From NCBI GenBank assembly GCA_017613595.1, contig JAGADM010000092.1, positions 1-64,000 on the forward strand: a stretch of 64,000 nucleotides of DNA, written 5' to 3'. Numbering within the stretch: the first letter of the stretch is position 1; every line of letters starts with the position of its first letter. Source of the stretch: Lachnospiraceae bacterium. GTDB taxonomy: Bacteria; Bacillota_A; Clostridia; Lachnospirales; Lachnospiraceae. The position numbers were made by a program, and so were the translations under genes. Positions 46,381-64,000 of the stretch are shown here, in pieces. Below the pieces are notes generated by a model, which worked only from the letters and a program-made list of their open reading frames with translations, ran no database searches and was not told where the DNA came from.

Positions 46381-46412
46381 AAAGGGTACTCCCTTCCCTT
46401 TGATTCTTATCA

Positions 46413-46441
46413 ATCATACCATATTTGACGGAAGCCGACAA
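46413..46441 (-). promoter_or_regulatory. Promoter of the PlsC-like gene
   Basis: Minus strand TTGTCG (46441-46436), 17 bases, extended -10 TGG-TATGAT (46418-46413). Confidence 0.7.
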
Positions 46442-46495
46442 TAGCGGAGCATAGAACGGACCGGCGCATCCGCATAGGTTGTTTCAGGCCTCGGC

Positions 46496-46524
46496 TTGAG
46501 AGTTGCGGATGATTATGATAAAAT
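46496..46524 (+). promoter_or_regulatory. Promoter of the membrane protein gene at 46566
   Basis: TTGAGA (46496-46501), 17 bases, extended -10 TGA-TAAAAT (46519-46524). Confidence 0.68.
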
Positions 46525-46565
46525 CAAAGAATAAGGCGGGAGATCATGCGGCAAAGGAGACTCAG

Positions 46566-47831
46566 ATGAAGAAGAAAATCACCAGGATTATTTCAACAAC
46601 CGCGATAACGGCCGGTGTTATTACAGGCATCGTATATTTCGTATGGCTTCTGTTCTGCCCGAACGATATGACGCTCGGCGGAAACGTACGGATCTTTATG
46701 AGCAAAGCACTTCGAAACGGAATCCGGTTTGAATATCTTTTCGTACTGATCGGAATTCTTTTGATCTATCTGCTGCCGCTTCTTATACTGCTCAGAGATT
46801 CGAATAACAACGGTATCGACGGAATCGGAGAAGCGCTGGCATTTGTGATCCTGATCCGACTGTTCCGGGCGGTGGTTGCATTTGTCCTTCTTTTTGTTAA
46901 TCCGATCCGCATTTTGATCAAATATCACAGTGCGTACGGAGAGGCAGTTCCGAAGGTATGGGGAATACTCAGCATCATCGTGACGCTTCTGCCCGTGTTC
47001 GCGGCGCTCCTCGTAATCTTCGAGGTGCAGATTGACAACTGGTTTTTCAACCGCAAATACTGCACCGCTCCCGGCGGTTACCGGAAGGATGAGGCGGACT
47101 ACGTTAAGCCGTCGGTTTTCTTCTGGGAACTGGGCGACCGCGGACTGCTGGCGGGAGAGAAGTATTATCCGCTTATCGAAAAACTGAACGGCAAATATGC
47201 CCCGCAGTCGGTGCTTAATTCGAAGGCATATTATCCCCTGTCGAGAATGTCGGCACTCCGTAAAAGCACATATTACGATAAAATGGAGTCGTGTGAGGCA
47301 ATCCTTCCGGATTCCGAGGTAACGGCGCCGGTTTACATATATCACGCGATTCTCGCAATCCCCGAAGAGGGCGGCATGCTGCAGTATATTCCGGCAGCCC
47401 GTTTTCAGGAGCAGGGATATATCAAAGGCAATTTCGCACCGCTCTTTCAGGACTTTTATCTGGAGTGCAAGATTATCTTTGCGGACGGCGATCTGTATGC
47501 GGTTATCGGTTCCGAAGAGAGTTTTGATATCAGAAAGAGTTTTGATGAGAAAAAGATCGATATGGATGACAGGCCGTATCAGATCATCCTTACCGAAAAG
47601 GATACGATTACGACCTATGCCGAAGAGCAGTACTGTCCGAACGGATCAATCCGGATCGCATACGGGGATTTTGAGATGCTTCCGAATACGGAGAAGCCCT
47701 TCTGCGGAAGAGCGTATCCGTTACGAAAGGTGGAAAGAATTGACGCCGATACGATCAACCGTATTGCGGCGGAAATGCAGAACGGTATCCTGAAGGATGC
47801 TGTCGAATACCATTTAAGAATACGTTCGTAG
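46566..47831 (+). CDS. Membrane protein of unknown function
   Basis: A 421-residue protein with four membrane segments in the first 170 residues (about 9-32, 55-77, 92-115, 140-160) and a soluble domain of about 250 residues rich in Tyr and acidic residues. No known family or catalytic motif was recognised. It has its own promoter and an AAAGGAGAC ribosome site, and looks monocistronic. Its last 18 bases overlap the convergent ANTAR gene. Confidence 0.72.
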   Translation: MKKKITRIISTTAITAGVITGIVYFVWLLFCPNDMTLGGNVRIFMSKALRNGIRFEYLFVLIGILLIYLLPLLILLRDSNNNGIDGIGEALAFVILIRLFRAVVAFVLLFVNPIRILIKYHSAYGEAVPKVWGILSIIVTLLPVFAALLVIFEVQIDNWFFNRKYCTAPGGYRKDEADYVKPSVFFWELGDRGLLAGEKYYPLIEKLNGKYAPQSVLNSKAYYPLSRMSALRKSTYYDKMESCEAILPDSEVTAPVYIYHAILAIPEEGGMLQYIPAARFQEQGYIKGNFAPLFQDFYLECKIIFADGDLYAVIGSEESFDIRKSFDEKKIDMDDRPYQIILTEKDTITTYAEEQYCPNGSIRIAYGDFEMLPNTEKPFCGRAYPLRKVERIDADTINRIAAEMQNGILKDAVEYHLRIRS

Positions 47832-48395
47832 GATTTCCTCGGCGACTTCGCGCTTCGATACACAGCGGTCCATAGCCTGTTTTTCGATATAGCGGTGAGC
47901 CTGCGGCTCGTCCATGTTAAGCGAGGCGATGAGCTGCCATTTGGCGCGGTTTACGAGACGGATTTCTTCCATTTTGGCTTCCACGGATAGAGTGGTCTTT
48001 TCAAGCTTGCGGAGACGTTCGCGGGCGCTGGACATCCACTCAAGCGCAATGGTCAGAACCGTCTGCGAGGTGGGCTTTGCAAGGGTAAATACGCCGTGCG
48101 CGCCGACTTTATCGAGAATGTCCGCATGGTGCTCCGAAGGAACGAGAAGCAGCACGACGGTACCGCCGGCTGCGGCATCGATGGCGAAACGGGTGCCTAC
48201 CTCGTCGGAGAGCGGCGCGTTGATAATGATATGGTCAAAGTGCTGCTCGCTTAACAGTCTTCGCGCTGCGCTGATGTTCGGGACAGAGATTACCGGGGAG
48301 TAGCGCACGTCCGGCATCAGCTGCGAAAGCGCAGTATTCACGGGCGATTTCGCGGATACGATCAAAACGCTGTAGACACGTTCTTTGAGGGTCAT
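47814..48395 (-). CDS. ANTAR-domain RNA-binding antiterminator with degenerate receiver
   Basis: A 193-residue regulator. Residues 8-120 look like a response-regulator receiver, but the phospho-acceptor position is Asn (HIIINAPLSDE, where an Asp is usual). Residues 130-190 are an ANTAR domain (KMEEIRLVNRAKWQLIASLNMDEPQAHRYIEKQAM, then SKREVAEEIL). ANTAR proteins bind hairpins with six-base loops in nascent mRNA and prevent termination. It is the last gene of the glutamate synthase-glnA unit, and two matching hairpins lie at 54905-54924 and 55047-55066. The ATG at 48395 has AAAGGAG at the right distance. Confidence 0.9.
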   Translation of the reverse strand: MTLKERVYSVLIVSAKSPVNTALSQLMPDVRYSPVISVPNISAARRLLSEQHFDHIIINAPLSDEVGTRFAIDAAAGGTVVLLLVPSEHHADILDKVGAHGVFTLAKPTSQTVLTIALEWMSSARERLRKLEKTTLSVEAKMEEIRLVNRAKWQLIASLNMDEPQAHRYIEKQAMDRCVSKREVAEEILRTYS

Positions 48396-48412
48396 GCGCA
48401 CTCCTTTCTCTG

Positions 48413-48428
48413 GGACGGCGTGCCGTCC
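48413..48428 (-). other. Hairpin between glnA and the ANTAR gene
   Basis: GGACGG / CCGTCC palindrome with a 4-base loop, no U-run. It may adjust translation or stability of the last gene. Confidence 0.4.
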
Positions 48429-48446
48429 GGGTATTGTTATCGGTAC

Positions 48447-49658
48447 TTAGCGGTCGCAGTAGATGGAAAGAATCTCCGCAGGGATATGCTCGCGGATGAA
48501 AGTGCTTTCCGCAGCATAGCGGCAGGCATCCGCAAGGTTATCCGGAAGCTTCTCGTAAGCGGCGAGCGAAGACTCATCCGCCGTGTAGAAGTTGATATCG
48601 GCTGCCGGCGGAAGCACGAGGTTATTAAGACGACCGTCCAGGCAGGCGTAAATGATCAGGGCAAATGCGAGATAAGGGTTCGCGGAAGGATCCGGCGAAC
48701 GAAGCTCCGCGCGGCGGAATTCGCCTTGTGCGGCGGGAATCCGGATCAGCTGCGAACGGTTCTCCATTGACCAGCTGATATATCCGGGCGCCTTACTGCG
48801 GCCCAGACGGCGGTAGGATTCATCCATGGGATTCAGGAATACCGTCATCGGAATCATATATTTGAGAATACCGGCGAGCATCGGACATACTTCGGCTTCG
48901 CCGGATTTGTTTTTCAGGGAGAAATTGATGTGGAAGCCGTTTCCGGGTTCCTGTTCGAGCGGCTTCGGGGAGAAATCGGCATACAGTCCGTTTCTCGAAG
49001 CTACGGTCTTAACGACACGGCGGAACATCATGACATTGTCCGCAGCCTCCAGCGGATCCGAGTAGCGGATGTCGATCTCATTCTGGCCGGGGCCGACTTC
49101 GTGGTGGGAACTCTCGGGGGAGATTCCCATCTGCTCAAGAGTCAGGCATACTTCACGGCGGACGTTCTCACCGCGGTCGTCGGGAGCGACATCCATGTAG
49201 CCGGCGTTGTCCCAGGGGGTCTTCGTCGGGTTGCCGTTCTCATCGAGACGGAAGAGGTAGAATTCCTGCTCCGCGCCGAAGGAGAACTCATAACCCGCGG
49301 CTTTGGCGTCTTCGACAGCCTTCTTTAAGAGAGCGCGCGTGTCGCATTCAAACGGTGTTCCGTCGGGCCAGGTTATGGACGAAAACATCTGCATAACGCG
49401 GCCGTGCTCCGGTCTCCACGGAAGCGGAGTCAGCGTCTCCGGGTCCGGATGAAGGAACAGATCGCTTCTGGACTCGTCGCCGAAGCCCGCAATGGCGGAA
49501 GCATCTATGGCGATACCGTGCGTAAAGGCGCGCGGCAGTTCGTTCGGCATAATGGAGATGTTCTTCTGTCTGCCGAATGCGTCGCAGAACGCGAGGCGGA
49601 CAAATTTCACATCTTCCTCCATTACATACTGAATGACCTCATCTTTTGAATACTTCAT
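48447..49658 (-). CDS. glnA: Glutamine synthetase, class I type
   Basis: A 403-residue enzyme joining ammonia and glutamate with ATP. Motifs are FSFGAEQEFYLF, GPGQNEIDIRYSDPLEAADNVM, NGFHINFSL and the Arg-rich WSMENRSQLIRIP plus RRAELRSPDPSANPYLAFA. It is shorter than typical GSI (about 440-470) and the C-terminal adenylylation loop is not evident. The AGGAGG at 49658 sets the start. It follows the glutamate synthase genes by 103 bases with a hairpin between, and precedes the ANTAR gene. Confidence 0.95.
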   Translation of the reverse strand: MKYSKDEVIQYVMEEDVKFVRLAFCDAFGRQKNISIMPNELPRAFTHGIAIDASAIAGFGDESRSDLFLHPDPETLTPLPWRPEHGRVMQMFSSITWPDGTPFECDTRALLKKAVEDAKAAGYEFSFGAEQEFYLFRLDENGNPTKTPWDNAGYMDVAPDDRGENVRREVCLTLEQMGISPESSHHEVGPGQNEIDIRYSDPLEAADNVMMFRRVVKTVASRNGLYADFSPKPLEQEPGNGFHINFSLKNKSGEAEVCPMLAGILKYMIPMTVFLNPMDESYRRLGRSKAPGYISWSMENRSQLIRIPAAQGEFRRAELRSPDPSANPYLAFALIIYACLDGRLNNLVLPPAADINFYTADESSLAAYEKLPDNLADACRYAAESTFIREHIPAEILSIYCDR

Positions 49659-49701
49659 ATTTCCTCCTGACTGCGCCGAAAAGACGCCCCCTATAAAACC
49701 C

Positions 49702-49730
49702 CAAAGAGCGCGCAAAGATTGCGCGCTTTG
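49702..49730 (-). other. Intercistronic hairpin before glnA
   Basis: GCGCGC/GCGCGC stem with 7-base loop, extended by CAAA/TTTG across a 2-base bulge. On the minus strand TTTGGGGTTTTA follows, a poor U-run, so at most partial termination. Confidence 0.45.
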
Positions 49731-49761
49731 AGAATACCTGATAAATCACTTGTAAAAACGC

Positions 49762-50484
49762 TTAGTTCGCGACGTACATCTGACGGTACGGGTTGCGGCT
49801 GTCCGGCGTGACAACGGTGAAAGGATCCTTTAAAAGTTCCTCCGCGTCGAGTCCGAAGCGTCCGCAGTAATCCGTAAGATACGGCCGAAGCTCGGCAAGG
49901 TCCGCTTCCTCAGCGGGACGAGCGGTTACCTGAGCGGGAAATGTGATATCCCCGCAGGACGAACGCAGGAACATCTTGCCGCCGTGCATTCCCGTGCAGG
50001 GGAAGTTGCCGACGATCCTGCGGTCCGAATCCGTGAGTCCGAGAACAACGATGATGCCGCCCGCCTGGTATTCCCCGAGGAAACTGCCGGCGCATCCGCC
50101 GATGATCATGACCGGAAACTTCTCGTGGAAAGCCTTCATATGGATACCTGCGCGGTATCCGGCATTTCCTTTCACATAGATCCGTCCGCCGCGCATCGCA
50201 TAGCCCGCGGCATCTCCGATATCTCCGTGAACCTCAATGATTCCTTCGTTCATCGTATCGCCGACCGCATCCTGCGCATTGCCCTGAACGGTAATGTGCG
50301 AGCCGTTCAGATAGGCGCCGAGCGCGTTGCCCGGAACACCGGTGATGGTCACATCCTTGCCGGACATGCCGGAAGCGATGAAACGCTGGCCGAGACAGCC
50401 CTCCAACAGGCAGTCTCCCTGCACTCCGCGGATGCTTTCATTAAGCGCTTTATGATCAAGTCCCTGTGCGTATATCGTTGTCAT
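49762..50484 (-). CDS. Glutamate synthase GXGXG domain subunit (GltB3-like)
   Basis: A 240-residue protein made of the right-handed beta-helix that forms the C-terminal domain of large glutamate synthase: repeating G-x-x-G-x-x-G turns (GNALGAYLNGSHITVQGNAQDAVGD, GDIGDAAGYAMRGGRIYVKGNAGY). It is a structural part of the split enzyme. It starts 2 bases after the FAD oxidoreductase gene. Confidence 0.9.
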   Translation of the reverse strand: MTTIYAQGLDHKALNESIRGVQGDCLLEGCLGQRFIASGMSGKDVTITGVPGNALGAYLNGSHITVQGNAQDAVGDTMNEGIIEVHGDIGDAAGYAMRGGRIYVKGNAGYRAGIHMKAFHEKFPVMIIGGCAGSFLGEYQAGGIIVVLGLTDSDRRIVGNFPCTGMHGGKMFLRSSCGDITFPAQVTARPAEEADLAELRPYLTDYCGRFGLDAEELLKDPFTVVTPDSRNPYRQMYVAN

Positions 50485-50486
50485 AG

Positions 50487-51719
50487 TTATACCACACCTC
50501 CAAACTTTTTTCTACGGGTTTCTACGGAAAATGCAGCGGCCGTCGCGTGCTTCTTAAGAAGCTCAAGATCGATTCCGTCGAGCGGTGTCTGCTCGCGGAT
50601 CAGTGAGGTATAGATACCTGCGCGCTCGTCGCATCCGATCAGAAGGAACCCCTTCAGGTGATTGTCTTTTACATACAGACGTTTGATGGAGTGATCGGTT
50701 TTCTCTTCGTAAAGGTCACCTTCGTAGGAGCCTGCCGTCATGGCGTGAAGCCCGAAGAAACCGATCGAGTTCATCGGCATGCCCTTCCGGAATTCTTCCG
50801 CACCTCCTGCCATGTTGATGCCGGCGGTATGGCCCTGCATGTAAGCGTTCGGGAAGATTGCGAGAACGCGGGTCTTTCCGATACTCAGGTCATAACCCTC
50901 CGCGCAGTCGCCTGCGGCGTAGATATCCGGAATCGAAGCAGCCATACGGTCATCCACAAGAATGCCGCGGCCGGTCTCGCCGCCGATATCCTTCACGAGT
51001 CCGATGTTCGCGCGGACACCGACCGCAAGAACGAGAATGTCGAAAGGAACCTCCGCGCCGCTCTTCATGTGAGCGGTCTTACCGGTAAATTCGGCAACGC
51101 TGTCGGAAAGCAGAAAATGCATTCCGTTCGCCTCCAGATGAGACTGCATCAACGCGGCGCACTCGTTATCGAGAATGCTCGAAAGAACGCGGTCCGCAAG
51201 GTCGCAGACCGTAATGCTTCCGACACGGGCGAGAAGTCCTTCGGCGCATTTCAAACCGATCAGTCCGGCACCGACGATCAGTACGCGGGCTTCCGGAAAG
51301 AGAGCCTTCTCAAGGGCAAGCGTATCATCAAGCGTCAGGAACGAGAATTTCTCGGGAACGGTATCGAGTCCCGCCATGGGCGGAACGAAAGGCGAAGAAC
51401 CCGCCGCAACGCAAAGCGCGTCGTAGGGGAGTACGGTCCCGTCATCAAGAGTGACGGTCTTCGCGTCCTTATCAATCGATGCCGCGCTGCGTCCGTACAG
51501 TACTTCGGCACCGTTCTTCTCATAAAAATCCGCGGGGCGGTAAGCCATCTTCGTCAGGTCCGTCTTGCCCTCCAGATAATAGGAGATGAGCGGACGGCAG
51601 TAAACTTCGTGCTTTTCGGCGGAAACAACGGTGATGGGGCCTTCCGTGTCAACACTGCGGATGCCTTCGATGCATCCTGCCGCGGCAACGCCGTTTCCGA
51701 TGATCACATAGCGTTTCAT
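50487..51719 (-). CDS. NAD(P)/FAD-dependent oxidoreductase of the glutamate synthase cluster
   Basis: A 410-residue pyridine nucleotide-disulfide-type flavoprotein: FAD site VIIGNGVAAAGC, NAD(P) site VLIVGAGLIGLKCAEGL, and FAD-closing GILVDDRMAASIPDIYAAGDCAEG. It probably feeds electrons from NAD(P)H to the iron-sulfur subunit and so to the FMN of glutamate synthase. It replaces the usual GltD small subunit. The start overlaps the upstream Fe-S gene by 4 bases. Confidence 0.92.
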   Translation of the reverse strand: MKRYVIIGNGVAAAGCIEGIRSVDTEGPITVVSAEKHEVYCRPLISYYLEGKTDLTKMAYRPADFYEKNGAEVLYGRSAASIDKDAKTVTLDDGTVLPYDALCVAAGSSPFVPPMAGLDTVPEKFSFLTLDDTLALEKALFPEARVLIVGAGLIGLKCAEGLLARVGSITVCDLADRVLSSILDNECAALMQSHLEANGMHFLLSDSVAEFTGKTAHMKSGAEVPFDILVLAVGVRANIGLVKDIGGETGRGILVDDRMAASIPDIYAAGDCAEGYDLSIGKTRVLAIFPNAYMQGHTAGINMAGGAEEFRKGMPMNSIGFFGLHAMTAGSYEGDLYEEKTDHSIKRLYVKDNHLKGFLLIGCDERAGIYTSLIREQTPLDGIDLELLKKHATAAAFSVETRRKKFGGVV

Positions 51720-52156
51720 AGGCTTTCACCTCGCTCTTCATAAACTATGGCGTGGTTCGGGCAGCCGGTCACGCAGGCAGGCTTTCCGTTGGTGTTCGAA
51801 AGACAGAGTTCGCATTTCTGCATCGGGCTTCCTTCCACCGGCGTAAGCGCTCCGTAGGGGCACACGAGAACACAGGTGAAACAGGAGACACACCGCTCGC
51901 GGCGGATCTTTACGACACCGTCTTCCCGGTAAATGGCACCCGCGATGCAGCTCTTCATGCACATGGGATCGGTGCAGTGGCGGCACGATACGGCAAATGT
52001 GATGGCGTCTCCTTCCTCCACATGAATGCGGGGCTGGATCTTCTTGCCCATCAGGGCGCTTGCCATACTGACGCCGCCCATGTTGGCGTATGCGCAGTTA
52101 TATTCGCACAGGTGGCAGCCGAGACACCATTCTTCGTTGACATAAACTCGTTTCAT
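51716..52156 (-). CDS. 4Fe-4S electron-transfer subunit of the glutamate synthase cluster
   Basis: A 146-residue dicluster-type ferredoxin with four Cys groups (CLGCHLCEYNC, CRHCTDPMCMKSC, CVSCFTCVLVCP and CELC..ACVTGCP), like HycB/DmsB electron carriers. It sits between the flavoprotein and FMN subunit genes and probably links them. The start at 52156 has AGGAGAG and lies 4 bases after the FMN subunit stop. Confidence 0.9.
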   Translation of the reverse strand: MKRVYVNEEWCLGCHLCEYNCAYANMGGVSMASALMGKKIQPRIHVEEGDAITFAVSCRHCTDPMCMKSCIAGAIYREDGVVKIRRERCVSCFTCVLVCPYGALTPVEGSPMQKCELCLSNTNGKPACVTGCPNHAIVYEERGESL

Positions 52157-52160
52157 AGGC

Positions 52161-53666
52161 TTACTCTCCTGCGTGGGAGATTCCGAGAATCTCCAGTTCT
52201 TTCTCATTCAGACCGACGCCGCGGAGCATCAGGCGGTTGCCTCGAAGAGCCTCGACGGAGTTGATTCCCATGCCGCCCATGAGCTCTTTGATCTCGTGCT
52301 TCCATGCGGTCATCAGGTTGATGAGCCGCTCGCTTCCGAGGTCGGGATTGAGACGTTTTACAAGGTCCGGACGCTGGGTCGCGATACCCCAGTTACATTT
52401 GCCGCTCTGGCAGGTACGGCACAGATGACAGCCGAGTGCAAGAAGGGCAGCGGTTGCGATGTAGCAGGCGTCCGCGCCGAGCGCGATGGCCTTGACAACA
52501 TCGGAGGCGCTCCGGATCGAACCGCCGACAACGAGTGATACGTCGTTACGGATGCCTTCATCGCGGAGACGCTGGTCAACGGCCGCGAGCGCGAGCTCGA
52601 TCGGGATACCTACGTTATCACGGATTCTGGTGGGAGCCGCTCCGGTACCTCCGCGGAAACCGTCGATCGCGATGATGTCCGCACCGCTTCGGGCGATACC
52701 GCTTGCGATGGCCGCGATGTTATGAACTGCCGCGACCTTTACGATAACGGGTTTCCGGTAGCCGGTCGCTTCCTTTAAGGAATAAACAAGCTGTCTTAAA
52801 TCTTCAATGGAATAAATGTCATGGTGCGGTGCCGGAGAGATGGCATCCGAACCCTCGGGGATCATACGGGTACGGGATACGTCGCCGACGATCTTCGCGC
52901 CGGGCAGGTGACCGCCGATACCGGGCTTCGCGCCCTGGCCCATCTTGATCTCAATAGCCGCTCCGGCTTCGAGGTACTGCTCATGTACGCCGAAACGTCC
53001 GCTCGCAACCTGCACGACCGTGTTCGGTCCGTAGCAGTAGAAGTCTTCGTGCAGACCGCCTTCACCGGTATTATAGAGGATGCCGAGCTCCGTAGCCGCG
53101 CGTGCGAGCGACGCGTGCGCGTTATAACTAATGGAACCGTAGCTCATTGCCGAGAACATTACCGGCATGGAAAGAGTCACATGCGGCGGAAGTTCGCAGA
53201 TGAGCTTGCCGTTCCCGTCACGCTGCATGGTCTTCGGACGTTTGCCGAGCGTTACCTGTGTCTCCATCGGTTCGCGCAGCGGGTCGATCGGAGGGTTGGT
53301 AACCTGGGAAGCGTTGATCAGAATCTTGTCCCAGTAAACCGGAAGAGGTTTCGGGTTACCCATGGAGGAGAGCAGCACGCCGCCGCTTCCCGCCTGTTTG
53401 TAGATTTCACGGATCGTATTATTCTGCCAGTTCGCATTTTCCCTGAGCTGACAGTCACTCTTGACGATCTTCAAAGCACGGGTCGGGCAGAGCGATACGC
53501 AGCGCTGGCAGTTGACGCATTTACTTTCGTCACTGATCATCCGGCCGGTTTCGGGGTTGATCGTATGTACTTCATTGGCGCACTGCCGTTCACATACGCG
53601 GCAGGCGATGCAGCGGTCCGGGTTCCGCACTACTTCAAATTCCGGATAGATAAAATCGATGCCCAT
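52161..53666 (-). CDS. Glutamate synthase FMN-binding central subunit with N-terminal ferredoxin domain
   Basis: A 501-residue protein. Residues 15-75 hold two 4Fe-4S sites (CIACRVCERQC, CVNCQRCVSLCP). Residues 120-490 are the GltB central/FMN barrel: ISYNAHASLARAATELG, TGEGGLHEDF, EIKMGQGAKPGIGGHLPG, IAIDGFRGGTGAAPT and VGGSIRSASDVVKAIALGAD, then Cys-rich CHLCRTCQSGKCNWG. It reduces 2-oxoglutarate plus ammonia to glutamate. This archaeal-type layout is common in anaerobic Firmicutes. Its start overlaps the amidotransferase stop (TGATG). Confidence 0.94.
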   Translation of the reverse strand: MGIDFIYPEFEVVRNPDRCIACRVCERQCANEVHTINPETGRMISDESKCVNCQRCVSLCPTRALKIVKSDCQLRENANWQNNTIREIYKQAGSGGVLLSSMGNPKPLPVYWDKILINASQVTNPPIDPLREPMETQVTLGKRPKTMQRDGNGKLICELPPHVTLSMPVMFSAMSYGSISYNAHASLARAATELGILYNTGEGGLHEDFYCYGPNTVVQVASGRFGVHEQYLEAGAAIEIKMGQGAKPGIGGHLPGAKIVGDVSRTRMIPEGSDAISPAPHHDIYSIEDLRQLVYSLKEATGYRKPVIVKVAAVHNIAAIASGIARSGADIIAIDGFRGGTGAAPTRIRDNVGIPIELALAAVDQRLRDEGIRNDVSLVVGGSIRSASDVVKAIALGADACYIATAALLALGCHLCRTCQSGKCNWGIATQRPDLVKRLNPDLGSERLINLMTAWKHEIKELMGGMGINSVEALRGNRLMLRGVGLNEKELEILGISHAGE

Positions 53667-54760
53667 CAGTATGCTCCTTCCTTTACGCGAACGATTACCG
53701 GTTCCCCGCCGGCAGGCGCCCAGATCTTCGTTACATCGGGCTCCATCACGCGTATCGCGGCTTCCTCGCTTGCGATATAGACTTTGTCGTCTTTCTCGCC
53801 GACCACCATCGACCTTAGCTTCAGCCGGTCGTTGAGGGCCATCAGGCCGCCGTCAAATCCGAGGACGATCGAGAACGGTCCGGTAACCAGGAGGCTCGGG
53901 AACACGTTCCGCAGGAACTCTAATTTCTTCTTCTCGTATTCGTCGGTCTTCGATTCGATCGTGCTCCAGAACGGGGCCGCGATAACATTGGCCGCTTCGG
54001 TAAGCGTCAGGCCCTGAACGCGAAGGAGATAATCTAAAATATAAGTGATAACCTCGGTATCGGTCTGGAGGTTGCATTTGTATCCGAACATCTCAATGAA
54101 CCGGCGGTTCGCGTCGTACGAGGAAATCTCGCCGTTATGGACAACCGAATAATCGAGGAGCGTGAACGGATGCGCGCCGCCCCACCAGCCGGGGGTGTTG
54201 GTCGGATAACGTCCGTGCGCGGTCCAGCAGTAGCCTTCGTACTCATCGAGGCGATAGAAACGTCCGACATCCTCCGGGAAGCCGACAGCCTTGAAGGTTC
54301 CCATGTTCTTGCCGCTTGAGAAGACGTAGGCGCCTTCCATTTCCGTATTGATCTTCATAACGGTGCGCGCCACGAATTCCTTTTCGTCAAGCTGCAGATC
54401 CGCGAGCACCGACTTGAGAGGAGTTACGAAATAACGCCAGATGATCGGTTCATCCGTAATCTCGGGAATCTTCCGGGTAGGAATCAGCTCGCCTTTCACA
54501 ACCTCGAAATGTTCCTTAAGAAAAGCCTCGCAGGCCTTTCTCGTATCACGGCAGTCAAAAAACAGGTGAAACGCATAATAATCTTTATACTGCGGATAAA
54601 TCCCGTAGCCGGCAAATCCGCCGCCGAGACCGTTGCTGCGGTCATGCATCGGCTTCATTGAATCAATGATCGCCTGGCCGCTCATCTTCTTTCCTTCCTT
54701 CGAAATCACTGCTGCGATGGCGCAACCGGAGGGGATGCGCACCTGACCTTCCTGTTTCAT
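53666..54760 (-). CDS. Class II glutamine amidotransferase subunit of split glutamate synthase (GltB1-like)
   Basis: A 364-residue amidotransferase that releases ammonia from glutamine for the FMN subunit. The conserved Cys is in IPSGCAIAAV (residue 13), so 12 residues would have to be removed or the Cys used internally. Supporting motifs are GLGGGFAGYGIYP, WTAHGRYPTNTPGWWGGAHPF, DYSVVHNGEISSYDANRRF and LQTDTEVITYILDYLL. It is first in the minus-strand operon, about 100 bases after the attenuator. AAAGGA at 54769-54774 fixes the start. Confidence 0.92.
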   Translation of the reverse strand: MKQEGQVRIPSGCAIAAVISKEGKKMSGQAIIDSMKPMHDRSNGLGGGFAGYGIYPQYKDYYAFHLFFDCRDTRKACEAFLKEHFEVVKGELIPTRKIPEITDEPIIWRYFVTPLKSVLADLQLDEKEFVARTVMKINTEMEGAYVFSSGKNMGTFKAVGFPEDVGRFYRLDEYEGYCWTAHGRYPTNTPGWWGGAHPFTLLDYSVVHNGEISSYDANRRFIEMFGYKCNLQTDTEVITYILDYLLRVQGLTLTEAANVIAAPFWSTIESKTDEYEKKKLEFLRNVFPSLLVTGPFSIVLGFDGGLMALNDRLKLRSMVVGEKDDKVYIASEEAAIRVMEPDVTKIWAPAGGEPVIVRVKEGAY

Positions 54761-54857
54761 GGATTCGGTTCCTTTCTTCTTCTTTCGATATGCGGCTGCC
54801 GCATGGCCGAAGCCGCTTCCGCTTTCTGCTTGCGCTAAGCTTGGATCTGTGTGAAAC

Positions 54858-54917
54858 AAAAAGAAAAGGCGCTCATCGATACACAGACATTTTGCCTGTC
54901 CATCAATGAACGCCTTT
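54858..54917 (-). terminator. Leader terminator (attenuator) of the glutamate synthase operon
   Basis: On the minus strand 54917-54865 folds into a 25-bp hairpin with a 3-base A loop and one G-G mismatch, then TTTTCTTTTT. Four wobble pairs are G-U on this strand and would be A-C mismatches on the other, so the minus RNA is the functional one. It begins about 8 bases after the predicted transcription start. Confidence 0.85.
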
Positions 54918-54924
54918 GCTCATT
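54905..54924 (-). promoter_or_regulatory. ANTAR-like antiterminator hairpin, glutamate synthase leader
   Basis: Minus strand AATGAGC, six-base loop AAAGGC, GTTCATT: 7 bp including one G-U. The loop has A at position 1 and G at position 4, the published ANTAR rule. The loop and 3' arm are the start of the terminator's 5' arm, so the two folds exclude each other. Confidence 0.65.
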
Positions 54925-54931
54925 TGCCCGA

Positions 54932-54960
54932 ATTATACGCCCGTCCATTTCATATGTCAA
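54932..54960 (-). promoter_or_regulatory. Consensus promoter of the glutamate synthase-glnA-ANTAR operon
   Basis: Minus strand TTGACA (54960-54955), exactly 17 bases, TATAAT (54937-54932). The predicted start is near 54925. Confidence 0.92.
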
Positions 54961-54965
54961 GAGTT

Positions 54966-54992
54966 TTTTTCGCCGCGTTAAAGTGCGAAAAA
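54966..54992. promoter_or_regulatory. Dyad between the divergent nitrogen promoters
   Basis: TTTTTCGC, 11 bases, GCGAAAAA: a perfect 8-bp inverted repeat roughly midway between the two -35 elements. It could be a shared operator or, with its A and T tracts, UP elements for both promoters. Confidence 0.45.
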
Positions 54993-55009
54993 TTTTTTGA
55001 AATTGGGGG

Positions 55010-55038
55010 TTGACAACCCGAAAAGGCGGGTATATAAT
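55010..55038 (+). promoter_or_regulatory. Consensus promoter of class III glutamine synthetase
   Basis: TTGACA (55010-55015), exactly 17 bases, TATAAT (55033-55038), followed by TCGGCA much as in the divergent promoter. The predicted start is near 55044-55046. Confidence 0.92.
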
Positions 55039-55046
55039 TCGGCACA

Positions 55047-55066
55047 TAAAGGCAAAGGCGTCTTTG
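55047..55066 (+). promoter_or_regulatory. ANTAR-like antiterminator hairpin, glutamine synthetase III leader
   Basis: TAAAGGC, six-base loop AAAGGC, GTCTTTG: 7 bp including two G-U pairs. The loop is identical to that of the divergent leader and obeys A1/G4. It overlaps the terminator's 5' arm at 55054-55066. Confidence 0.65.
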
Positions 55067-55094
55067 AGTGGCAACACTCAGAGGCGCTTTTTTT
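55054..55094 (+). terminator. Leader terminator (attenuator) of class III glutamine synthetase
   Basis: A 17-bp stem (55054-55070 with 55075-55091) closed by a GCAA tetraloop, followed by further U's. It lies about 10 bases after the predicted start and 26 bases before the ATG. Confidence 0.88.
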
Positions 55095-55119
55095 ATTCCC
55101 AAATGAGAGGAGAACCAAC

Positions 55120-57216
55120 ATGAAGACAGTATCGGATTATTTCGGAACTAATGTATTTGACGACAGAGTGATGCGTGCCAATCTTTCGGCCGATGTGTAT
55201 CGCTCGCTTCGTAAAACGATAGACGAGGGTAAGGAACTCGATATCAGCGTAGCCAATGCGGTCGCTGAGGCTATGAAGAACTGGGCAGTGGAAAAGGGAG
55301 CGACGCATTTTACGCATTGGTTCCAGCCGCTGACCGGAATTACCGCCGAGAAGCACGACAGCTTCATCAGCCCGGCTCCGGACGGAAGCGTGATCATGGA
55401 GTTCTCCGGCAAGGAGCTCATCAAAGGTGAGCCGGACGCGTCCTCGTTCCCGAGCGGCGGCCTCCGCGCAACCTTCGAGGCGAGAGGATATACCGCATGG
55501 GATCCTACCTCGTACGCGTTCATTAAAGGAAAGACGCTCTGCATTCCGACCGCGTTCTGTTCCTACGGCGGACCGGCCCTTGATAAAAAGACTCCTTTGC
55601 TTCGTTCGATGGAGGTGCTCAGCAAAGAAGCTCTCCGCATCCTGAAGCTGTTCGGAAACAAGACCGCGAAACGCGTTGTTTCCTCGGTAGGACCGGAGCA
55701 GGAATACTTCCTTGTTACGAAAGAAATGTTTGACAAGCGTCCCGACCTCTGCTTCACCGGCCGTACCCTTTTCGGTGCGAAGCCTCCGAAGGGACAGGAG
55801 ATGGACGATCATTACTTCGGCGTTATCAAGCCGAGAGTTGCGGCATTCATGGAAGAGCTGAATGAAGAACTCTGGAAGCTCGGCATCCTCGCAAAGACGG
55901 AGCACAACGAAGTAGCTCCCGCACAGCACGAGCTGGCGCCGATCTACTCGACCACGAACATCGCAACCGACCACAACCAGCTGACGATGGAAATCATGCA
56001 GAAGGTTGCCGCAAAGCACGGCCTTGTATGTCTCCTTCATGAGAAGCCTTTCGCAGGCGTGAACGGCTCCGGTAAGCATAACAACTGGTCCATCGCCACC
56101 GACCGCGGACAGAACCTTCTTTCCCCGGGCGAGACTCCTTACGAAAATGCACAGTTCCTGTTGTTCCTGTGCGCGGTAATCAAGGCTGTTGACGATTATC
56201 AGGATCTGCTTCGTATCTCGGTTGCCACCGCAGGCAACGACCACCGTCTCGGCGCCAATGAGGCACCTCCGGCTGTTATCTCCATCTTCCTCGGCGATGA
56301 GCTGAATGCCGTTATGGAAGCTATTGAGAGCGGCAAGCCTTATGCGGGCGCAGAGAAGACGCAGATGAAACTCGGCGTTGACGTACTTCCGAAGTTCAAC
56401 CGCGACACGACCGACCGTAACCGTACTTCACCGTTCGCATTTACCGGCAACAAATTCGAGTTCCGTATGCTCGGCTCCTCGAACAGCATTGCCTGCGCGA
56501 ACATCATGCTGAATGCGGCCGTTGCGGAAAGCCTCAGAATCTACGCAGACCGCCTCGAGAAGGCCGAAGATTTCGAGACAACGCTTCATGAGATGATTCA
56601 GAAGACGTTCCATGATCATAAACGCATCATCTTCAACGGTAACGGTTATGACGATTCCTGGATTAAGGAAGCAACCGAGAAGAGGGGCCTTCTCAACTAC
56701 CGTACTACCGCGGACTGCATGCCGCATCTGTTAGATGAGAAGAACGTTAAGATGCTTACCGGACTCGGCGTATTCAGTGATGAAGAGCTTCGTTCCCGCT
56801 GCGATATCATGCTTGAGAACTACTGCAAGAGCGTAGTGATCGAGGCAAATACGATGGTGGACATGGCAAGAACACTGATTGCTCCCGCTGTGGAAGCATA
56901 TACCTGCGACGTAGCGAAGGCAGCTGCCGCCAAGAAGGCGGTTGTTCCGGGACTCGGATGCAGTTACGAAACCGAACTGGTTAAGAAACTGTCAAGCCTG
57001 ACGGATTCCATCAGCGCACATACCGATGAACTTGCGGAAGCAATCCTTAAGGTTGCCGGCGCAGGCGACATCATTGAAGAGTCGGCTCTCGTAAGAGACA
57101 TTCTCCTGCCTAAGATGAGCGAACTTCGTATCCCCTGTGATCAGGCGGAAGTGCTGACGGCACGCAGCTACTGGCCGTTCCCGACCTACGGCGAGCTTCT
57201 GTTCGGCGTAAAATAA
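55120..57216 (+). CDS. glnN: Glutamine synthetase, class III
   Basis: A 698-residue GSIII enzyme making glutamine from glutamate and ammonia; GSIII is typical of Bacteroidetes, cyanobacteria and some Firmicutes and forms large double-ring oligomers. Marks are [58 protein letters not shown] and the C-terminal [14 protein letters not shown]. The start at 55120 has GAGGAG. It has a separate attenuated promoter. This is the second glutamine synthetase in 6 kb, divergent from the class I gene's operon. Confidence 0.96.
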
Positions 57217-57281
57217 GAAGGTTATATTGGCGGGGTTTACAAATTGGGAAACCAAAATAACCGAAGAAGGAAGTGACCACT

Positions 57282-59069
57282 ATGTTAACAGAAGAAATCA
57301 CGAAAGCATTACAGGAAGCCGTTACCGGTGAAGTATTCGCCGTCTGGTTTTTGATCGGCGCAGCCCTTGTATTCTTTATGCAGGCCGGATTTGCCATGGT
57401 TGAGACCGGTTTTACCCGTGCCAAGAACGCAGGCAATATCATCATGAAGAACCTGATGGATTTCTGTATCGGCACTGTCGTATTTATCCTCCTCGGCTTC
57501 AGTCTGATGATGGCGGAAGATTATGTCTGCGGCTTCATCGGCGTTCCGAATTTGAAAATCCTGACCGATTTCGGCGGATTCCTTGCGGATGGAAACGCCC
57601 CCGCTTTCGTATTTAACCTTGTATTCTGCGCTACGGCAGCTACGATCGTATCGGGCGCCATGGCAGAGCGTACCAAATTCATCTCCTATTGTATTTATTC
57701 CGCAGTTATTTCATTGTTCGTATACCCGGTGGAAGCAGGCTGGGTTTGGAACTCTCAGGGCTGGCTCGTTAAAATGGGCTTCCATGATTTCGCAGGTTCC
57801 GCAGCCATTCATTCCGTCGGCGGTATCACCGCTTTGATCGGTGCAATCCTCGTAGGTCCCCGTCTCGGCAAATACATCCGTGACGAAAAGGGCAAGGTTA
57901 AGAAGGTAAATGCCATCCCGGGCCATGCCATTACGCTCGGCGCACTCGGATGCTTCATCCTCTGGTTCGGCTGGTACGGCTTCAACGGCGCAGCAGCCTG
58001 GGACGGAAACTCTCTTGCATCCATCTTCGTTACCACGACGGTTGCTCCTGCGGTTGCTACCGTAGTGACAATGATTTACACCTGGGTTAAGAACGGTAAG
58101 CCCGATGTTTCGATGTGTCTGAACGGTTCTCTTGCAGGCCTTGTAGGTATTACTGCAGGGTGCGACGCGCTTGACGCTCTCGGTTCCGTGATCGTCGGTG
58201 TTGTATCCGGTATCCTTGTAGTCGTTGTTGTTGAGTTCCTTGACCTGAAGCTTCATATCGACGATCCGGTCGGTGCCATAGGCGTTCATTTCGCAAACGG
58301 TGTCTGGGGTACCATCGCAGTAGGTCTTCTGGCTAACCCCGATGCTCCCGCAGGTCTGAAAGGTCTGTTCTATACCGGCAGCGCCAAGCTGCTCGGAGTT
58401 CAGACGCTCGGTATCGCAGCTATCCTTGCATGGACGGCGGTAACGATGACGATCACATTTGTCATCATCAAAAAGACAATCGGTCTTCGTGTTTCCCAGG
58501 AGGAAGAACTTCGCGGTCTGGACAGCACCGAACATGGTCTTCTGAGTGCATATGCCGATTTCGTACCGGCAGTGGAAAGCGTGGATTACGGTTTCGGTAC
58601 TCTCGCCCTTGCGGGTGTTGAACAGCCTGCTGCTCCCGTGGCGGTTGTCGGAGACACTCCGGTAGCGGAAGCAATCCCGGTTAAGAAAGTGCCTTCGTTC
58701 GACGATGGTTCACCGAAGTTCACAAAGGTTGAGATCGTATGTAAGGAAACGCGTCTTGAAAGTCTGAAGAACGCGATGATGGATCTCGGAATTACCGGTA
58801 TGACGGTATCCCACGTACTCGGCTGCGGCGTGCAGAAGGGTACTCCGGAATACTACCGTGGTGTTCCGGTTGAGGCAACCCTGCTTCCCAAGATCCAGGT
58901 TGACATCGTTGTCAGCAAGGTTCCGGTACGCAGCGTTATCGAGACCGCGAAGAAGGTTCTGTACACCGGTCATATCGGCGACGGCAAGATCTTCGTATAC
59001 GATGTTGAGAACGTTGTAAAGGTTCGTACCGGTGAGGAAGGCTACGACGCTTTACAGGATGTAGAGTAA
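57282..59069 (+). CDS. amt: Ammonium transporter fused to a PII signalling domain
   Basis: A 595-residue fusion. Residues 1-405 are an Amt/MEP channel with about 11 helices (FFMQAGFAMVETGFTRAKN, DFAGSAAIHSVGG with a pore His, GWYGFNGAA, DPVGAIGVHFANGVWGT with the second His). A Pro/Val linker follows, then a GlnK-type PII domain from about residue 480 (FTKVEIVCKETRLESLKNAM, GITGMTVSHVLGCGVQKG, T-loop PEYYRG, TGHIGDGKIFVYDVENVVKVRTGE). PII normally plugs the channel from the cytoplasm in response to 2-oxoglutarate and ATP/ADP. No separate glnK is nearby. GTG at 57273 is an alternative start; AAGGAAG favours 57282. Confidence 0.94.
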   Translation: MLTEEITKALQEAVTGEVFAVWFLIGAALVFFMQAGFAMVETGFTRAKNAGNIIMKNLMDFCIGTVVFILLGFSLMMAEDYVCGFIGVPNLKILTDFGGFLADGNAPAFVFNLVFCATAATIVSGAMAERTKFISYCIYSAVISLFVYPVEAGWVWNSQGWLVKMGFHDFAGSAAIHSVGGITALIGAILVGPRLGKYIRDEKGKVKKVNAIPGHAITLGALGCFILWFGWYGFNGAAAWDGNSLASIFVTTTVAPAVATVVTMIYTWVKNGKPDVSMCLNGSLAGLVGITAGCDALDALGSVIVGVVSGILVVVVVEFLDLKLHIDDPVGAIGVHFANGVWGTIAVGLLANPDAPAGLKGLFYTGSAKLLGVQTLGIAAILAWTAVTMTITFVIIKKTIGLRVSQEEELRGLDSTEHGLLSAYADFVPAVESVDYGFGTLALAGVEQPAAPVAVVGDTPVAEAIPVKKVPSFDDGSPKFTKVEIVCKETRLESLKNAMMDLGITGMTVSHVLGCGVQKGTPEYYRGVPVEATLLPKIQVDIVVSKVPVRSVIETAKKVLYTGHIGDGKIFVYDVENVVKVRTGEEGYDALQDVE

Positions 59070-59085
59070 CAGAATAAAGAATTCT

Positions 59086-59120
59086 TTGGGGAAGCGCTGA
59101 TACGCTCGGCGCTTCCCCAA
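59086..59120 (+). other. Hairpin between amt and asnB
   Basis: TTGGGGAAGCGC, 11-base loop, GCGCTTCCCCAA: perfect 12-bp stem. The sequence after it (TAATGATATTTT) is only partly U-rich, so termination may be incomplete and asnB may receive read-through. Confidence 0.6.
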
Positions 59121-59146
59121 TAATGATATTTTCGGAGGAAAGAGCG

Positions 59147-62396
<3,250 letters not shown>

Positions 62397-62435
62397 GACA
62401 TTATCCTCAATAATCCGGAAAGGTCGGAATGCAAT

Positions 62436-63845
62436 ATGGATCTTCATGAAGAATGCGGTGTATTCGGCGTAATCACGCCGGAACCTTCGGACGTAGCGGC
62501 CGATTGTTATTACGGACTGTATGCTTTGCAGCACCGCGGCCAGGAAAGCTGCGGGATTGTTGTAAACGATGACGGCGTATTTGTCTCGAAGAAGGACCTC
62601 GGGCTTGTGAGCGAGGTGTTCTCGGGCGACGCGCTGTCGCGTCTTCCGAGAGGAACGATGGCAGTTGCGCATACGCGGTACGGTACGACAGGCGCGAACA
62701 ACCGGAGTAACTGCCAGCCGATCGAGGTCAACCATCAGAAAGGACATATGGCGATCGCCCACAACGGAAACCTCGCCAACGCGTCCGCGCTCCGCTCGGA
62801 GCTGGAACTTTCCGGAGCCATATTCCATACGACAAGCGATACCGAAACGATAGCCTATATCGTGACAAGAGAACGCCTTTCCGCGCCTTCCATCGAGGAA
62901 GCCGTGAGCAGGGCGATGAATAAGTTCGAAGGAGCTTATTCGCTGATTCTGATGTCTCCCCAGAAACTGATCTGTGTGCGCGATCCGCATGGGTTCCGTC
63001 CCCTCTGTTACGGAACCCTGCCGGATGGCGGGTACGTGATCGCTTCGGAAAGCTGCGCGCTTCATGCGGCAGGTGCGGCGTTTGTGAGAAACGTGATGCC
63101 CGGTGAGATCCTTGTATTCTCAAAGGACGGCGTTGTCTCCCGTGAGGAGCACTGCAGCCGGAAGGATAAGCGGCTTTGTGTTTTTGAATATATCTATTTT
63201 GCGCGGCCAGATTCGGTCATTGACGGCGTGTCGGTGCATGAGTCGCGGGTGCATGCCGGCGAGATCCTCGCGGAAACGCATCCGGCCGATGCGGATATCG
63301 TGATCGGTGTTCCCGATTCCGGTATCGACGCGGCGCTCGGCTTTGCCCGTCAGTCCGGTATCCCGTACGGTATCGGGCTTGTGAAGAACAAATACATCGG
63401 CCGCACATTTATCGCCCCGAAAGACCGCTCGACGCAGGTGAAGATCAAACTTTCGGCGGTGGAGAGCGCGGTAAGCGGAAAGAGGGTCGTTCTGGTGGAC
63501 GATTCGATTGTCCGCGGTACGACGAGCGAGCAGATCGTAAAGCTTCTGCGGGAAGCGGGAGCGACCGAGATCCATATGCGCATTACGGCGCCGCCGTTCC
63601 GATTCCCGTGCTATTACGGGACGGATGTGGACTCGAAATCGGGACTGATCGCGACCGAACATACAACCGAGCAGATCGCGGCCATGATCGGCGCGGATTC
63701 GTTAGGGTATTTTCCGACGGAACGCCTTCCGGAACTCTCCGGCGGACAGGGAATCTGCAGCGCATGCTTTGACGGCAGTTATCCGACCGAAGTACCTTCC
63801 GAGGAGAGTAAAAATCGTTTCGAAAGAAGACTGTCCGAGTGTTGA
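62436..63845 (+). CDS. purF: Amidophosphoribosyltransferase
   Basis: A 469-residue enzyme for the first step of purine synthesis, moving glutamine ammonia onto PRPP. A six-residue propeptide (MDLHEE) precedes the nucleophile Cys7 of CGVFG, as in Bacillus PurF. PRPP loop VVLVDDSIVRGTTSEQIVKLL (about 350) and late Cys residues (FPCYYG, GICSACF) suit an Fe-S cluster of the B. subtilis type. It lies 39 bases after pyrG. Confidence 0.97.
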   Translation: MDLHEECGVFGVITPEPSDVAADCYYGLYALQHRGQESCGIVVNDDGVFVSKKDLGLVSEVFSGDALSRLPRGTMAVAHTRYGTTGANNRSNCQPIEVNHQKGHMAIAHNGNLANASALRSELELSGAIFHTTSDTETIAYIVTRERLSAPSIEEAVSRAMNKFEGAYSLILMSPQKLICVRDPHGFRPLCYGTLPDGGYVIASESCALHAAGAAFVRNVMPGEILVFSKDGVVSREEHCSRKDKRLCVFEYIYFARPDSVIDGVSVHESRVHAGEILAETHPADADIVIGVPDSGIDAALGFARQSGIPYGIGLVKNKYIGRTFIAPKDRSTQVKIKLSAVESAVSGKRVVLVDDSIVRGTTSEQIVKLLREAGATEIHMRITAPPFRFPCYYGTDVDSKSGLIATEHTTEQIAAMIGADSLGYFPTERLPELSGGQGICSACFDGSYPTEVPSEESKNRFERRLSEC

Positions 63846-63964
63846 CGAACGGCTCTCGGATTGCTATTATGTACGATGGTTAAAAGAGATTCAAAAAGGC
63901 AGTACACGAACCCTGATGCAATCGGTTAAGAATCCGGGAAACGGTGCTGCGAAAGGATAATGCT

Positions 63965-64000
63965 ATGAGTACGGAGAAAAAGCGGAAGATTGTCCTTGAG
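63965..64000 (+). CDS. Start of a further gene (cut by window end)
   Basis: An ATG at 63965 preceded by GAAAGGA at 7 bases opens a frame (MSTEKKRKIVLE) that runs off the window. It is too short to identify. Between purF and this ATG (63846-63964) nothing clear is seen. Confidence 0.5.
   Translation, partial: MSTEKKRKIVLE

Follow-up and report, generated by a model that had tools for sequence, protein, structure and literature searches.

Single-hexaloop leaders overlapping terminators at the divergent glnN and gltB operons of a Lachnospiraceae bacterium suggest attenuation by an ANTAR protein

Introduction

The RNA targets described for ANTAR antiterminator proteins have two hexaloop hairpins (PMC3369931, PMC8934654, PMC8164766). 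In the model for EutV, the ANTAR dimer binds a recruitment hairpin first and then the antitermination hairpin (PMC8934654). In surface plasmon resonance EutV bound the isolated single hexaloops P1 and P2 with about the strength seen for the dual RNA; the binding motif was redefined as one hexaloop, two were kept for antitermination, and the study of single ones was called for (Walshe 2022, PMC8934654). The control of glutamine synthetase and glutamate synthase (GS/GOGAT) genes by ANTAR proteins is already known. ANTAR matches at glutamate and glutamine synthase genes were obtained with a dual-hairpin covariance model (Ramesh 2012, PMC3369931), and the ANTAR protein NitR of Clostridium saccharobutylicum is said to induce the GS/GOGAT genes by antitermination on nitrogen limitation (Stutz 2007, as cited in PMC6316151). 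Here we analysed a contig stretch of 64,000 nucleotides from a Lachnospiraceae bacterium (JAGADM010000092.1, positions 1 to 64,000; the window), in which a type III glutamine synthetase gene, glnN, and a split glutamate synthase operon beginning with gltB are transcribed divergently. Each of the two leaders has one hexaloop hairpin at the predicted transcription start, overlapping an intrinsic terminator. The second operon ends with the genes of a glutamine synthetase I-like protein (GS1) and an ANTAR protein.

The leaders resemble the target RNA of EutV in having a hexaloop with A at position 1 and G at position 4 (A1/G4), a stem of at least 3 bp, mutual exclusion with an intrinsic terminator and a place upstream of nitrogen genes. 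They differ from it by one hexaloop instead of two, by its location at about +1 and by a conserved G-U second pair; the ANTAR protein of the window also differs from EutV, as its receiver is without the phospho-Asp. With the NitR system the locus shares the linkage of an ANTAR gene to GS/GOGAT genes, here beside a gene of the GS-I type in 60 of 60 loci. The two leaders would be consistent with GS/GOGAT control by antitermination. Unlike that system the locus has a type III glutamine synthetase and a GS1 without the flap Glu, and control here would sit in two divergent single-hexaloop leaders. The comparable gene neighbourhood in C. saccharobutylicum is that of glnA and nitR. The novelty lies in the putative attenuator with a single hexaloop at +1, an arrangement that current models of antitermination do not foresee. 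No published single-hexaloop ANTAR attenuator was found in a search of openly readable papers, which took in few subscription papers and no supplements.

The two leaders of the window

The initial annotation had described two perfect, divergent TTGACA-17-TATAAT promoters, a 7-bp hairpin with the loop AAAGGC by each predicted start, and the sharing of bases between this hairpin and the 5' arm of a terminator. All of this was confirmed. Both promoters match at 12 of 12 positions and are the only such matches in the scanned region 46000-64000 (Table 1). The hairpin coordinates agree with the folding of short RNAs: the first 22-24 nt of each RNA alone form the exact hexaloop hairpin (-4.8 and -6.3 kcal/mol), with 7 pairs in each stem, two of which are G-U in the plus-strand hairpin and one in the minus-strand hairpin. 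At full length the leaders adopt the terminator folds in its place (-26.2 and -38.4 kcal/mol; z -8.6 and -9.4). Since each terminator starts at loop base A1, the hairpin and the terminator folds are mutually exclusive.

Transcription usually starts 6-8 nt downstream of the -10 box. The hairpins begin at the ninth (plus strand) and eighth (minus strand) base past the -10 box and thus lie 0-3 bases from a start so placed. The combined unit of hairpin and terminator occurs exactly twice in the 64-kb window, once in each leader, and the single unit of glnN abuts the ribosome-binding site of this gene. The arrangement of hairpin and terminator is real and far beyond chance.

Known RNA families were searched with Rfam, where no family reached its gathering threshold in the window and the glnA RNA (PMC2864571) was not detected. 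Weak matches at a relaxed threshold (miRNA, PyrR and others) were far below the cut-offs and were dismissed. The gltD motif (PMC8632094) was set aside, as the hosts named for it are Selenomonadales and Veillonellales and its description has an occluded ribosome-binding site, not a terminator.

Conservation in related leaders

The leaders were compared with those of related loci (numbered L), taken as the best 80 of 247 relatives of the glutaminase subunit in clostridial genomes, mostly metagenome-assembled genomes from rumen and gut; being picked in this way, the 80 loci are close kin. One of them, L045, belongs to the named strain Agathobaculum desmolans ATCC 43058. At least two assemblies contribute two loci each (L013/L071 and L059/L067). 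Both gltB-type copies of these pairs carry a hexaloop leader.

Conservation was tested blind to the hairpin by requiring a promoter of at least 10/12 and asking for neither a hairpin nor a loop sequence. An A1/G4 hexaloop with a stem of at least 5 bp was present in 71 of the 72 distinct gltB leaders, the loop itself starting 13-16 nt past the -10 box. Among the glnN leaders, 47 distinct ones had such a promoter and 42 of them passed the A1/G4 hexaloop test. Left out of these counts were L018, L033 and L050 (no gltB promoter of 10/12), L008 (gltB leader of only 166 nt) and the 21 of 70 glnN leaders without a promoter of 10/12. When the hairpin and the terminator were counted as a combined unit, with the window included, a gltB leader length of 200 nt or more required and L008 skipped as short, at least one unit was found in 79/80 gltB and 69/70 glnN leaders. 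The misses were L033, which has a gltB-type unit farther upstream at 5382, and L029. The initial annotation had called for this comparative search and had named orthologous leaders without the hexaloop hairpin as the observation that would speak against it; the hairpin was instead present almost throughout.

The loop was then examined in units anchored on the stem arms only. A1, A2 and G4 were invariant in 78 of 78 distinct gltB units, position 3 was A in 64, T in 8, G in 4 and C in 2, position 5 was G or A and position 6 was C or T. A scan of the 80 loci for the combined unit returned 146 with the A1/G4 loop and, under otherwise equal rules, 0-2 for each of the 15 other letter pairs. A plain terminator would tolerate paired changes at these places, so the invariance of A1 and G4 speaks for a loop that is recognised.

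An alignment of 72 units (alignment A1), with rows chosen for stem and terminator pairing, was used to follow paired changes. Three stem pairs differ on both sides between gltB-type and glnN-type units (AU/UA, AU/GC and GC/AU) while the loop is kept; these double changes may go back to few evolutionary events. In the terminator both partners have changed at 9 of 14 pairs, and pairing is seen in 94.1% of the cells, a percentage that partly reflects how the rows were selected. The pair below the closing C-G was G-U in 71 of 72 units, A-U in one and never G-C.

One hairpin, not two

A partner hexaloop was sought 2-25 nt from the 145 distinct units. When the partner had to have a stem of 4 bp or more including one G-C pair, A1/G4 was found upstream in one unit (control letter pairs 0-9) and downstream in three (controls 2-12). 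With the demand for a G-C pair dropped, the 4-bp search again gave an A1/G4 count inside the spread of the 15 other letter pairs. A minimum of 3 bp gave a possible upstream A1/G4 partner in 13/145 units (7/67 gltB-type and 6/78 glnN-type), where the 15 control letter pairs gave 4-17 and 2-14, respectively. As the A1/G4 partners stay within the control range, there is no excess of a second hairpin, and the dual hexaloop with a short linker that marks the known ANTAR targets is no commoner than the controls among the 145 units. In the gltB leaders the 5' arm starts about 5-10 nt past the -10 box and the stems have 6-8 bp; being so near the box, the arm leaves little room for an upstream hairpin. 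As far as the leader sequences tell, the single-hairpin design is real and conserved. The minimal variant with one hairpin near +1, put forward in the initial annotation, was thus upheld in the relatives, where a partner hairpin is no commoner than chance.

We also surveyed the surroundings of ANTAR genes in more distant members of the class, 20 stretches in all, with a looser scan that allowed a linker of up to 30 nt. It gave 28 matches for A/G and has a background, with 18 for A/A and 13 for G/T. A dual hexaloop was detected before the GS-I gene in L126 and L140, so the scan is able to see duals. A hexaloop without a 4-bp partner, after a promoter-like sequence and before GS/GOGAT genes, was found in L127, L131, L134, L135, L136, L138 and L145. 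An upstream 3-bp A1/G4 candidate, though a weak one, is present in L127 and L145, and in L127, L131, L134, L138 and L145 there would be space for a first hairpin, with 33-57 nt between the -10 box and the loop. The single-hexaloop leaders may be older than the clade of the window.

At glnN, two tandem units, each with its own terminator, were found in 48 of 70 leaders, spaced 61-141 nt in 43 of the 48. A single unit was counted in 21 of 70, including the window and L060; this number is an upper bound, as the count misses low-scoring second units such as that of L001, which has two by eye. The glnN leader of the window is the less common, one-unit form, and an assembly collapse of similar tandem units may have produced it. 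The 'matched pair' of the initial annotation describes the window correctly, both loops being AAAGGC, and is not typical of the relatives with their tandem units at glnN.

The ANTAR protein and its occurrence with the unit

The ANTAR domain of the protein encoded in the gltB operon scored above the Pfam cut-off and the receiver model only below it. In an alignment to Rv1626 (PDB 1s8n; PMC8934654) the position of the phospho-Asp was taken by Asn61 in 61 of 61 proteins (the window and 60 loci), and the phospho-acceptor Asp of the EutV-type response regulator was not present in any of these receivers. The acidic pair of Rv1626 was replaced as well, by Ser16 in 61/61 and mostly by Ala or Ser at residue 17. 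Because of the Asn at the phospho-acceptor site, the signal probably arrives otherwise than in EutV. Where the match of a more distant relative extends over the site, Asn is found there as well in most cases, so this pseudo-receiver is probably older.

The RNA-binding region was aligned to EutV, for which the chain numbers run two ahead of those in the paper. Met172, essential in EutV (PMC8934654), corresponded to Met177 and Tyr164 to His169, each in 60 of 60 proteins. Cys180, at a place where EutV has an RNA-contacting Arg, is near-invariant (59/60).

All 22 genomes tested, a selection from the 80 loci, have an ANTAR gene, 19 of them a single one, and the window's own contig encodes the protein. 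In a class sample of 291 genomes, which includes G006 and G014 as already known unit carriers, the unit was present in 34, an ANTAR match in 145 (143 over the cut-off) and both in 31. ANTAR thus occurred in 31/34 genomes with the unit versus 114/257 without it (Fisher P 8.5e-8, uncorrected for kinship).

A mechanism and its alternatives

We think it likely that each leader is a single-hexaloop ANTAR attenuator that is opened by the ANTAR protein under nitrogen limitation. While the polymerase leaves the promoter, the A1/G4 hexaloop hairpin would form from the first 20 nt or so of the RNA. If no active ANTAR protein is present, the inner hairpin of the terminator would form next, its 3' arm would displace the 5' arm of the hexaloop, and transcription would stop about 50-70 nt from the start, as judged from the sequences and folds. 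Under nitrogen limitation the ANTAR protein would bind the lone hexaloop and block the strand exchange. The glnN-amt-asnB operon and the operon from gltB to GS1-ANTAR would then be read through together, the ANTAR gene included. The initial annotation had assigned the control of both operons to this protein, and the comparative evidence supports such a mechanism and strongly suggests it.

Several observations weigh against it. The hairpin test was missed by 5 of 47 glnN and 1 of 72 gltB promoter-anchored leaders, and 3 of the 34 genomes with the unit had no ANTAR match. Arg175 and Arg177 of EutV, which were part of a triple mutant losing binding (PMC8934654), are replaced by Cys180 (59/60) and by the variable residue 182 (Ser in 37/60). 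The paired percentages of alignment A1 are no independent evidence.

The lack of conservation of these two RNA-contacting Arg residues and the strong sequence conservation around +1 would suit another reader of a real hairpin and terminator, such as a DNA-binding regulator at +1, a NusG-type factor or a small molecule. However, the published rule for ANTAR targets is A1/G4 with position 3 free (PMC3369931, PMC8934654), the unit tracks the ANTAR gene, the second stem pair with its G-U in 71/72 and never G-C is unlike a DNA palindrome, and no Rfam family came up at threshold in the window, which makes a different factor very unlikely. It is very unlikely that the leaders are ordinary dual-hexaloop targets with a first hairpin that has degenerated or belongs to a longer RNA begun at an unrecognised start farther upstream. 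The dual form of the described targets, the dual motifs before the GS gene of the distant Clostridia L126 and L140 and the possible 3-bp upstream partners in 13/145 units would agree with it, whereas the gltB hexaloop keeps a fixed distance at about +1 of a near-consensus promoter, and the stricter partners (1/145 upstream, 3/145 downstream) show no excess over control letters. The short terminated RNAs could also be the product themselves, as decoys binding the ANTAR protein in the way proposed for EutX and EutV, given that an isolated hexaloop can bind EutV and that EutX has an extra single hexaloop (PMC8934654). This we regard as highly improbable, since nearly all gltB and glnN leaders have the unit between promoter and gene and the hexaloop within the terminator, as expected for cis control; a decoy role may exist on the side.

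Attenuation by the ANTAR protein through one hexaloop would give a natural, conserved set of such leaders in rumen and gut Clostridia, where they stand before core nitrogen genes. The gltB hairpin lies too near the predicted start for a recruitment hairpin ahead of it, and the minimal requirement for ANTAR antitermination becomes directly testable. The findings suggest that searches demanding two hairpins likely miss targets of this kind. They also point to a possible sensor derived from glutamine synthetase.

GS1 as a possible sensor

The GS1 gene is directly upstream of the ANTAR gene in 60 of the 60 loci with an ANTAR match, with a gap of 27-117 nt to the match. GS1 without an ANTAR match was found in L021, L029, L039 and L059, where the contig breaks off inside GS1 or no more than about 120 nt away from it. 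The flap Glu, named catalytic as Glu304 in B. subtilis (PMC9249791), was Lys in 62 of 64 GS1 sequences, Arg in one and Asn in one, so the catalytic E-flap Glu of an active type I glutamine synthetase was not kept in these 64; it was kept in 15/15 more distant relatives. In 61 of 65 GS1 sequences the position of Arg62, or one close to it, holds an Asp (Asp80), as placed by eye in the alignment. E149, E151, E206, E213, H262, R320, R325, R335, E337 and R339 were kept in 63-65 of the 65. The score of GS1 is well under the GlnA equivalog cut-off (Table 1).

We infer that GS1 is no normal glutamine synthetase. It may be a signal partner of the ANTAR protein; a changed substrate is the plain alternative. 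Tentatively, and with less than even confidence, we propose that the degenerate GS1 could act as a nitrogen sensor that holds and releases the pseudo-receiver ANTAR protein, which would antiterminate via one 5'-end hexaloop without a recruitment hairpin. Gating of an ANTAR protein by a partner protein and not by phosphorylation would be shared with AmiC-AmiR (PMC3369931) and NasS-NasT (PMC3795266). AmiR is also among the PDB relatives of the ANTAR protein, and the putative partner differs from theirs in being a glutamine synthetase-like protein. In the GS-TnrA/GlnR circuits (PMC9249791) a glutamine synthetase likewise serves as the sensor for a gene regulator. The regulator there is DNA-binding, whereas an RNA antiterminator would take its place here, and GS1 is without the Glu304 and the Arg62 used in the feedback-inhibited enzyme. 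If true, sensing by a glutamine synthetase would here control RNA elongation rather than DNA binding.

A possible wider regulon

A model of the unit (R1) detected 52 units over 19 genomes, two to four in each, and by position these were mostly in the glnN/gltB region. For units outside this region the downstream gene was named by eye from the translated start. A unit with a promoter precedes a gene reading as NADP-glutamate dehydrogenase (L111:2341-2399) and another one a gene reading as adenylosuccinate synthetase (L112:1240-1299). The unit at L114:2538-2595 lies before a gene reading as PurC and has no recognisable promoter. Two further R1 units outside the region are at G022:C37:8532 and G018:C14:768. 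The units in L111, L112 and L114 would point to a wider regulon in some genomes.

In the genome of L040, GS1-ANTAR lies behind glnN-asnB rather than gltB; there, on L115, the pair is equipped with a separate promoter and unit (3245-3309, 24.3 bits, E 0.014). In L122 a conventional-looking large subunit of glutamate synthase, without a match to the window's glutaminase subunit at E 1e-8, has a promoter and an ATGAGC-AAAGGC-GTTCAT unit. From these cases the unit seems to go with nitrogen function and with the ANTAR gene.

Genes of the two operons and further observations

Table 1. Promoters, leader elements and genes of the divergent glnN and gltB operons in the window.
Feature	Position	Strand	Details
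glnN promoter	55010..55038	+	TTGACA-17-TATAAT, 12/12 match
gltB-operon promoter	54932..54960	-	TTGACA-17-TATAAT, 12/12 match
glnN leader hexaloop hairpin	55047..55066	+	arms 55047-55053/55060-55066; loop AAAGGC 55054-55059
gltB leader hexaloop hairpin	54905..54924	-	arms 54924-54918/54911-54905; loop AAAGGC 54917-54912
glnN leader intrinsic terminator with U tract	55054..55096	+	terminator 55054-55091, then U tract; 5' arm is the hexaloop loop plus its 3' arm
gltB leader intrinsic terminator with U tract	54856..54917	-	
glnN, glutamine synthetase type III	55120..57216	+	Pfam GSIII_N 269.9 bits; solved relatives 3o6x and 7u6o, named glutamine synthetase
Ammonium transporter with fused P-II domain	57273..59069	+	3' of glnN; Pfam, NCBIfam amt
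Asparagine synthase	59123..60730	+	3' of amt; Pfam
gltB (name used here), split glutamate synthase glutaminase (GATase) subunit	53666..54757	-	ATG at 54757; Pfam GATase_2 (on the longer open reading frame), 80 related loci
Split glutamate synthase flavin mononucleotide (FMN) catalytic subunit with ferredoxin domain	52161..53666	-	Pfam Glu_synthase 456.7 bits
4Fe-4S ferredoxin subunit	51716..52207	-	Pfam; longest open reading frame, true start perhaps further in
Flavin adenine dinucleotide (FAD) pyridine nucleotide-disulphide oxidoreductase	50487..51719	-	Pfam
Split glutamate synthase GXGXG subunit	49762..50484	-	Pfam GXGXG
GS1, glutamine synthetase I-like, flap Glu to Lys	48447..49658	-	317.7 bits versus GlnA equivalog cut-off 429.15
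ANTAR protein (NitR-like), pseudo-receiver and ANTAR domain	47814..48401	-	Pfam ANTAR 61.2 bits; PDB relatives 1s8n, AmiR, EutV

For the glutaminase subunit a TTG start at 54859 was rejected in favour of the ATG at 54757, from which the homologues align at residue 1-3. In most of the 80 loci glnN lies on the opposite strand upstream of gltB, and GS1-ANTAR ends the operon; the gene order is rearranged in some, for example in L038 and L040.

Sliding identity in a MAFFT alignment around positions 54000-55300 of the window gave 84-95% to L001 and 61-72% to L002 in the intergenic region of about 54700-55100. Beyond 55400 and below 53900 the window was mostly nearer to L002 than to L001. It looks as if both leaders had been exchanged together by recombination, or as if the assembly were a mosaic. 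The 17-nt spacer of the glnN promoter (55016-55032, plus strand) contains the inverted repeat ACCCG...CGGGT, with a similar one in L001, which could be an operator or due to chance.
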